From contig JACRLC010000088.1 in the NCBI GenBank assembly GCA_016235425.1, positions 1 through 64,000 on the forward strand: a DNA stretch of 64,000 bases, read 5' to 3'. The position numbers and the translations under genes were made by a program. Shown in pieces: positions 5,544 to 40,044 of this stretch. The notes under the pieces were generated by a model, which ran no database searches, had not been told where the DNA came from, and was given only the letters and a program-made list of their open reading frames with translations. How positions within the stretch are numbered: the first letter of the stretch is position 1; each line of letters opens with the position of its first letter. The DNA comes from Chloroflexota bacterium. GTDB lineage: Bacteria; Chloroflexota; Anaerolineae; Anaerolineales; Villigracilaceae.

Positions 5544-5554
5544 GCCCCACCCAA

Positions 5555-5588
5555 CCTCCCCCATTTTGAAGTGCTAAAATGGGGGAGG
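5555..5588. repeat. Palindromic repeat overlapping the arfB ribosome binding site
   Basis: CCTCCCCCATTTT (5555-5567) pairs perfectly with AAAATGGGGGAGG (5576-5588) over an 8-nt loop. The right arm GGGGGAGG is the only good Shine-Dalgarno for the following ATG, 10 nt away. A hairpin in the mRNA would hide it. Confidence 0.8.
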
Positions 5589-5598
5589 TGTAAATTCC

Positions 5599-16706: not shown

Positions 16707-16803
16707 ACCCCCACCCAGCCTCCCCCAAATTCGACAGGTGAAGTATGGTTGGCATAAATAATTTTCATGTCGAATTTGGGGGAGGTGCCGAAGGCGGAGG
16801 GGG
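16707..16803. repeat. Palindromic element inserted in hsdM
   Basis: CCTCCCCCAAATTCGACA (16719-16736) pairs perfectly over 18 bp with 16768-16785; outer CCCCCACCC/GGAGGGGGT flanks extend it. It belongs to the same family as the elements at 4101, 5555 and 21381. Confidence 0.85.
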
Positions 16804-21380: not shown

Positions 21381-21430
21381 CTTCCCCCATTTTCAGACCG
21401 CTGGTTTTTGCGGGCTGCAAATGGGGGAAG
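21381..21430. repeat. Palindromic repeat upstream of DUF559 gene
   Basis: CTTCCCCCATTT (21381-21392) pairs with AAATGGGGGAAG (21419-21430) across a 26-nt loop that itself contains CCGCTGGTTTTTGCGGG. Same family as 4101, 5555 and 16719. Confidence 0.75.
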
Positions 21431-31911: not shown

Positions 31912-32160
31912 GCGGAGCGTAGTCGAAGGACGAGGGCTTCCAAGATATCTTTCGCTTGCATCCACGCCCTTCGACTACGTTCGTCGCAAAGAACGCTCCT
32001 CTCTCCGCTCAGGGCGAATCTACGTCCTGAGCGGAGCGGAGCGCAGTCGAAGGACGAGGATGCAGGTAAGTTCACATATCCATGCCACCGCGCTTCGACT
32101 GCATTCGGACGAAAGGCATGTCCTCTCTCCGCTCAGCGCGAATCTACGTCCTGGGCGGAG
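31905..32160. repeat. Cluster of CGTCCTGAGCGGAGCG / CTTCGACT palindromic repeats
   Basis: Several inverted copies of CCTGAGCGGAGC(G)TAGTCGAAGGACG and CTTCGACTACGTTCG...CTCTCCGCTCAG are packed between the convergent EamA and membrane-protein genes (31912-32210). No gene or terminator of standard form is seen. A short related piece is at 4168-4198. Confidence 0.75.
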
Positions 32161-38963: not shown

Positions 38964-39905
38964 TTAAGCCACACCAAACAATCTCGCCAGAATTGCCTTC
39001 TGTGCATGCAAGCGGTTATGCGCCTGCGGGAAGATGACCGAGTGCGGGCCGTCGGCTACTTCATCTGTCAACTCGTGGTTGCGATGTGCGGGCAGGCAGT
39101 GCATCACGATCACATCCTTGTCCGCTTCGCTGACGAGTTGGGCGTTCACTTGATACGGCGGGAAGACTTTCCCGCGCCTGGCGGTTTCCTCCTCCTGTCC
39201 CATCGAAGTCCATGTGTCGGTATAAATTACGTGCGCGCCTTTCACGGCCTCGTGCGGATCGCGAATGAACCTAAGTAGGGGCGGGGTAACCCCGCCCCTA
39301 CCCGTTTTTTCGGCAATCTTCTTTGCAACCTCAATTGCTTTCGGATTCAAGTCGTAGCCCTCGGGGCTGGCAAGCGTGAAATTCCAGCCTAATTTCGCGC
39401 TAACGTGCATGAGCGAAACAGCCACGTTGTTTCCATCTCCCACGAAAGCCACGTTCAAGCCTTTCTTCTTTCCGAATTTTTCCTGAATGGTCAGCGCGTC
39501 GGCCATGCCCTGGCAGGGATGGTTGTAATCGCTCAAGCCGTTGACCACCGGCACATCCGACCACTTCGCCAGTTCCAGCACGTGCTCATGCTCGAACACG
39601 CGCGCCATCAACCCGTGGACGTAACCCGAAAGCACGCGCGCCACATCCGCAATGGATTCGCGCTTGCCCAAACCGATTTCTGCCGGCGAAAGATATAACG
39701 CATCACCGCCCATGTGACGCATCGCCATGTCAAAAGACACGCGCGTCCGCAGACTGGGCTTCTGGAAGATCATACCCAGCACTTTCCCCTCGAATAATGG
39801 CTTGTTTCCTTTTTTGAAATATTCCTTCTTGAGTTTTATCGCGAGATCGAGCAGATCCTGCACTTCATCAGATGATAGATCAGATATTGCCAAAAAATGT
39901 TCCAT
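38964..39905 (-). CDS. argF: Ornithine carbamoyltransferase with in-frame palindromic insert
   Basis: 313 residues from the ATG at 39905 (GAAGGAGAAA just before it; an ATG at 39953 is less likely). It makes or breaks citrulline from ornithine and carbamoyl phosphate. Motifs: [10 protein letters not shown] (carbamoyl phosphate), [19 protein letters not shown], the ornithine region and HCLPAHR. Between KKIAEKTG and [11 protein letters not shown] a 27-bp perfect palindrome (39275-39301) is read as GRGGVTPPL. Related enzymes have about six fewer residues here, in a surface loop, so activity is probably kept. Confidence 0.93.
39275..39301. repeat. 27-bp palindrome within argF
   Basis: GTAGGGGCGGGGT, a single A, then the exact complement. 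It is of the GC-rich scattered-repeat type often found between genes, but here lies inside an intact enzyme gene and keeps frame. Confidence 0.85.
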
Positions 39906-40011: not shown

Positions 40012-40044
40012 AGGTGACAGTCACTTGCGAAGTGACTGTCACCT
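40012..40044. repeat. Inverted repeat with 15-bp arms, 3-nt loop
   Basis: AGGTGACAGTCACTT-GCG-AAGTGACTGTCACCT lies between argF and the MBL gene. The arms are those of 30941-31003, with T-A here where C-G stands there. Confidence 0.8.

Follow-up and report, generated by a model that had tools for sequence, protein, structure and literature searches.

A GTAG-tagged, REP-like palindrome probably retained in a surface loop of ornithine carbamoyltransferase in a Chloroflexota bacterium

Introduction

Short repeats are usually regarded as residents of intergenic DNA. GTAG-tagged REPs form a super-family reported from Chloroflexi and other phyla (Di Nocera et al. 2013, PMC3733652). According to that report, such REPs also lie within genes in several species, different REPs occupy nearly the same position in recB of two Xanthomonas species, and the flanking of a RAYT gene by a GTAG REP is frequent, not universal.

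Here we describe a palindrome within argF of a bacterium of the Chloroflexota, located in a stretch of 64,000 nucleotides (the window). Like the GTAG-tagged REPs, the argF repeat combines a GTAG end, a length of 20-40 bp, compensated stems, short loops and many copies with dimers carrying GTAG outside, a TAG lent as stop codon and some copies in genes. It has most features of this group, but not the one-sided unpaired tag. Whereas the tag of the described REPs is unpaired and found at one end only, GTAG pairs here with CTAC of the other end in single units, and since both ends are tagged and mutually paired, a single unit is a full palindrome. No RAYT adjoined a copy in 47 Y1 neighbourhoods, and several genomes hold copies in corresponding loops of three enzymes. 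REPINs (PMC3116915) and RAYT/TnpA-REP systems (PMC8266576) are resembled in the paired hairpins of 46-52 bp, the outward GTAG and the presence of Y1 genes in most genomes, but differ in that no copy adjoined the Y1 genes read. The original prediction had drawn a parallel to the palindromic elements of Rickettsia. This is fair as an analogy, palindromic repeats being found in frame within working proteins (here argF, hypF, glpK and prpD). However, RPE-1 is longer than the argF repeat, and R. conorii RPEs end in CGTC (PMC3733652) and not in GTAG, which makes the GTAG-tagged REPs the nearer kin. A literature search covering mostly papers outside subscription yielded no description of the argF repeat in Anaerolineae or of the repeats found here in the hypF loop.

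Small dispersed repeats of Nostoc, which Elhai and co-workers are said to have described in 2008, reportedly measure 21-27 nt, have nested copies and are accompanied by heptamer repeats; they are likewise very short with compensated stems, in another phylum, and they are not known to insert within proteins. Yeast mitochondrial GC clusters are short GC-rich palindromes, optional in occurrence, one of which lies in frame in VAR1. They differ from the argF repeat in residing in an organelle and in their unrelated sequence.

The argF palindrome and its host protein

The argF gene (38964-39905, minus strand, stop included) encodes a protein of 313 aa from ATG, which was recognized as a complete ornithine carbamoyltransferase by TIGR00658 (379.9 bits, cut-off 280.85). 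The SLRTR, HPCQ, SMG and HCLP motifs were invariant in a 37-row alignment of relatives. At 39275-39301, on the same strand, lies GTAGGGGCGGGGT-A-ACCCCGCCCCTAC, a perfect palindrome of 27 bp (13+1+13) whose coding-strand form is GTAGGGGCGGGGTTACCCCGCCCCTAC. It is an in-frame part of codons 202-211 (39273-39302), which stand in place of a native TGSKL-type loop in the codon alignment. The frame is open throughout. Both the palindrome and the otherwise normal enzyme around it are as originally predicted. The palindrome starts with GTAG and ends with CTAC, ends that are shared by 10 copies in the genome. Within the window, the pattern TAGGGGCG-N3..30-CGCCCCTA was found at one place and in none of 100 shuffles; by a rough independent-base estimate, 0.009 perfect hairpins with arms of at least 13 are expected in 64 kb. 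The window also contains other dispersed hairpins of similar arm size.

An AlphaFold2 model of the protein (mean pLDDT 91.7, pTM 0.91; pLDDT 69 for block 201-210) placed the insert between the helix 188-200 and the strand 211-214, and an alignment with the PDB homologues 1a1s and 1pvv had a gap opposite to it. According to the model, the insert is predicted to form a surface turn that lies apart from the invariant motifs of the active site.

Matches to argF at E <= 1e-100 were present in 125 of 152 family genomes. The length comparison covered 125 places in 123 genomes, two genomes being counted twice and G012 and G147, with short partial matches, being excluded. Compared to this argF, 68 places were 18 bp shorter and 54 were 15 bp shorter, such that 122 of the 125 lie mutually within one codon and five to six codons below; one further place was 21 bp shorter and G005 only 3 bp. 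In 47 genomes the sequence of the site itself was inspected base by base, and an insert was found in two. The congener G001 and, from genus g5, G028, G095 and G096 had T-G/R-S-K/R-L at this position. By these comparisons, the palindrome in argF is derived and its residues are not ancestral, in line with the original prediction. The latter had also put relatives at about six residues shorter, which agrees with a net gain of 18 bp relative to G001 in the codon alignment. The 27 bp it named, however, are the length of the palindrome and not the gain of the gene. As a 27-bp palindrome accompanies a net gain of 18 bp, about 9 bp of the native argF loop are gone.

A dispersed repeat family

The palindrome had been assigned from its appearance to a scattered-repeat kind, and a whole-genome search bore this out. 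The pattern GTAGGGGC-N8..38-GCCCCTAC had 10 perfect-ended places in this genome and none for the reversed control pattern, which excludes uniqueness, so that neither of the two outcomes named as refuting the original prediction was obtained; a looser pattern gave 11 places and four for its control. In other genomes, GTAGGGGCG-N4..34-CGCCCCTAC was matched in 118 of 152 from the family and in 114 of 400 drawn from the phylum, with up to 128 copies, while the controls were mostly 0 and at maximum 4. The exact 27-mer of the argF site accounts for at least eight of the places listed for G138, and one viral contig matched the exact element.

Copies have constant ends, GTAGGGGCG...CGCCCCTAC, a constancy partly imposed by the search pattern, whereas the inner stem, which was left free, varies with compensation. 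A sample of 34 places was analysed, consisting of all single-hairpin copies in loci of the genome under study (G000) and part of the copies of G005, G096 and G138. Among 24 distinct, unselected copies from this sample, 92 of 96 inner stem cells were paired (shuffled mean 50.75; none of 2000 shuffles reached 92). In 30 hand-picked 28-mers, mostly perfect, 99.7% of the cells were paired and 50 cells differed in both arms, a level that none of 500 shuffles reached; further pair types were not in excess in this set (133 of 500 shuffles). Two forms were observed, single hairpins of 27-31 bp and double hairpins of 46-52 bp with GTAG outward, the latter being present in G000 (C54, C55, C109) and other genomes. 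Composite copies made up of half a palindrome and a whole one were present in G005.

Occurrence in related loops and genes

A second genus carries a palindrome at the same argF codon: G005 has GTAGGGACGGGGTTACCCCGTCCCTAC there, with a net gain of 15 bp. Neither this nor the displacement of about 9 bp of loop had been part of the original prediction, which likewise missed the pattern in glpK and hypF. Of 25 glpK loci, a set to which the closer of the two copies in G005 did not belong, 22 yielded the loop, and relatives of the palindrome with different stems were found in 3 of the 22 genomes read. In G096 and G095 these are perfect 28-bp GTAG...CTAC palindromes, which differ in their stems and add four residues each, a net of 12 bp per 28-bp palindrome. 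In G037, a member of another family, a palindrome with altered ends adds six residues.

For hypF, the loop was obtained from 47 of 50 loci (L237-L286). Intact copies were present in two of the 47 (G000, G122) and decayed copies, judged by eye, in three (G014, G001, G159). Perfect hairpins with arms of at least 9 occurred in 8 of 47 loops compared to 0.19% of codon shuffles, and tandem repeats with a period of 7 or 8 (>=85%) in 10 of 47 compared to none of 4700 shuffles. This repeat load favours a tolerant loop over target choice by one element. The loop, situated between CGPxVWLE and DAILETRRLL, holds unrelated short repeats that differ by genome: GTAG palindromes, AACGTTTGAACGTTCAAACGTT palindromes (alike in G005 and G015), and period-7 repeats such as CGGACGA, AATACGC, AATTACC and ATGCAGA.

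Most sampled copies lie outside recognised genes. Seven of the 34 places are within ORFs matched to a protein family or argF. Five of these are in argF (twice), hypF, glpK and prpD; the other two, in ORFs for a methyltransferase and for a TIR-domain protein, fall outside the matched domain. Relatives in frame were found in glpK (G096, G095, G037), hypF (G000, G122) and prpD (G096). Two of the three frames through the element are open, and copies within ORFs use these two, which are free of TAG, whereas several other copies terminate an ORF with their own TAG. A 505-aa ORF of L206 containing the palindrome had no family match and was taken off the in-gene count; L194 and L199 were left uncounted, since the palindrome precedes the likely start. 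L199 encodes a DmsB-like protein of G138, in which an internal VGAGSPRP resembles, at the level of translation, a repeat copy, another copy being located near the start.

Origin and retention of the insert

We consider it probable (about 0.8) that the argF palindrome is one copy of a short dispersed Chloroflexota repeat of the GTAG-tagged, REP-like type, retained in a surface loop that tolerates it. In the likeliest reading, palindromes of this type insert at many places and persist where a loop can accommodate them. Copies are scattered across the genome, and since two of three frames are open, one that arrives in such a loop can be retained as protein, provided that the net change in length is a multiple of three. 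In argF, about 9 bp of loop would have been displaced and six extra residues accommodated in the turn. The distribution of copies suggests that the palindrome is mobile, and a moving enzyme as well as neutrality of the insert may be supposed. Set against this reading are the lack of an adjacent copy at the 47 Y1 neighbourhoods, with one copy 1.2 kb off, the pairing of the GTAG end, the bases lost at the argF site, which go beyond simple insertion, and the fact that the genomes are largely metagenome assemblies. Three conserved enzymes offer a natural map of protein loop tolerance to short repeats, and the empty and filled sites a basis for working out how such tiny elements insert. Annotation also calls for caution, as peptides such as RGGVTPPL or VGAxxxxPLQ that recur in this group among unrelated proteins can stem from translated repeats instead of homology.

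How the palindrome reached the loop could be explained in several ways. The strongest of them, which we nevertheless regard as holding a minority of the weight, involves no dedicated transposase: at short matches (GNAG on one side), loop bases would be replaced by single-strand annealing or template switching, and hairpin-templated correction would follow later. Loop bases were indeed lost in argF (net +18 and +15 per 27 bp) and glpK (net +12 per 28 bp), although they may have gone later than the insertion. In G005, gene sequence on both sides of the argF palindrome forms a perfect inverted repeat of 14 bp (fold z -8.90); the longest run there is 15, compared to 6 in its congeners G028 and G096, and 0 of 20000 shuffles reached 14 or more. 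The half-plus-whole copies of G005 also fit. Together, the base loss and this inverted repeat suggest template switching and hairpin-templated correction. However, argF of G000 has no such flanking repeat (longest run 4), and over the 34 places flank complementarity was no higher than expected overall (p 0.25), with a weak rise for outward extension (p 0.0255). A general rule of insertion into pre-existing hairpin loops was rejected, the pattern being striking in G005, absent in G000 and not general over the 34 places. A wider idea is held more tentatively still. Some surface loops of conserved enzymes in Anaerolineae-like Chloroflexota might be repeatedly rebuilt from mobile short repeats, GTAG palindromes replacing the loop and not simply entering it (twice in argF, up to three times in glpK and up to five in hypF), probably by template switching at hairpins, after which palindrome and flanks would be corrected toward perfect symmetry. 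If this were true, mobile DNA would supply the loop sequence of these proteins independently of any transposase.

Alternatively, a Y1 transposase of the RAYT type might move the palindrome in trans, cutting single-stranded DNA at the GTAG/CT ends. Y1_Tnp matches were present in 147 of 152 family genomes, GTAG is the tag used by TnpA-REP of E. coli and S. maltophilia (PMC8266576), and the paired forms of 46-52 bp resemble REP dimers with GTAG outside. However, a cognate palindrome adjoined the Y1 gene in none of 47 distinct neighbourhoods, one copy lying 1.2 kb away (L287). These neighbourhoods comprised the 30 best loci of the family search and 17 further distinct ones from palindrome-bearing genomes, most lower-scoring Y1 genes lying outside the sample. 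Several Y1 genes were instead flanked by a different, ATCCCGAAGGGAT-like hairpin family, and of two proteins tested against the REP-transposase model, one had a hit, at 24.7 bits far below the cut-off of 80. Without an adjacent copy in this sample, mobilisation by a RAYT is possible but unsupported.

A single ancestral insertion, or transfer between the two lineages, behind both argF copies is improbable. The palindromes of G000 and G005 differ by one compensated base pair, have a common centre and both follow ACGG, as either event would have it. Yet in a codon tree of argF from which the insert columns were left out, G005 grouped with G096 (100/99) within genus g5, whose other members read (G028, G095, G096) are without insert, and a clade of G000 and G005 was rejected (p-AU 0.0064); deep branches of this tree, that of G000 among them, were without resolution, and six rows had an odd base composition. 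An ancestral origin would require several clean losses. The immediate flanks in G000 and G005 track each gene's own lineage, such that any transferred tract must be very short. Transfer of the whole gene between G000 and G005 was discarded, as their identity of 80% is no higher than that to others and the joint clade is rejected.

That the hairpin is kept for a function, for example slowing or stabilising the argF messenger RNA or altering the enzyme, is very unlikely. As RNA, the palindrome folds into a hairpin of -24.3 kcal/mol (z -4.86), and together with its flanks the fold is strong (-36.9 kcal/mol, z -4.83). But only 2 of 125 measured argF places carry an insert, relatives with different stems sit in three unrelated enzymes and several unrelated repeat kinds fill the hypF loop, none of which is direct evidence on function. 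An artefact of assembly or binning can hardly be the cause: although GC-rich palindromes are prone to misassembly and the relatives are mostly metagenome assemblies, the frame is open, the palindrome is present in two genomes independently, and the contig has 170,533 bases in a genome that is 99.57% complete with 1.48% contamination.

Other repeats in the window and near Y1 genes

Apart from the GTAG palindromes, further repeats were observed. Just upstream of argF, AGGTGACAGTCACTT-gcg-AAGTGACTGTCACCT (40012-40044) forms a perfect hairpin with 15-bp arms. It looks like another dispersed family, because similar hairpins occur next to or close to the Y1 transposase genes of L154 and L176. L291, L292, L294, L304 and L306 contain Y1_Tnp genes of the MAGTYSQIYIQ type amid ATCCCGAAGGGAT / ACCCCTTCGGGGT hairpins, seemingly a REP family of their own. 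L158 contains, at 1387-1413, GTAGGTCACGCTTCAAGCGTGACCTAC, a GTAG...CTAC palindrome with an unrelated stem, which precedes a Y1_Tnp domain by about 90 bp. Within the window, inverted repeats with CCCCCAttt/aaaTGGGGG arms at 5554-5589, 16719-16785 and 21381-21430 possibly represent a further dispersed palindrome family. Finally, a GAGCGTAGTCGAAGG-type repeat is located at 31915-31982 and 32039, and a similar-looking peptide, LSEVEG, occurs in the hypF loop of G146 (L270).
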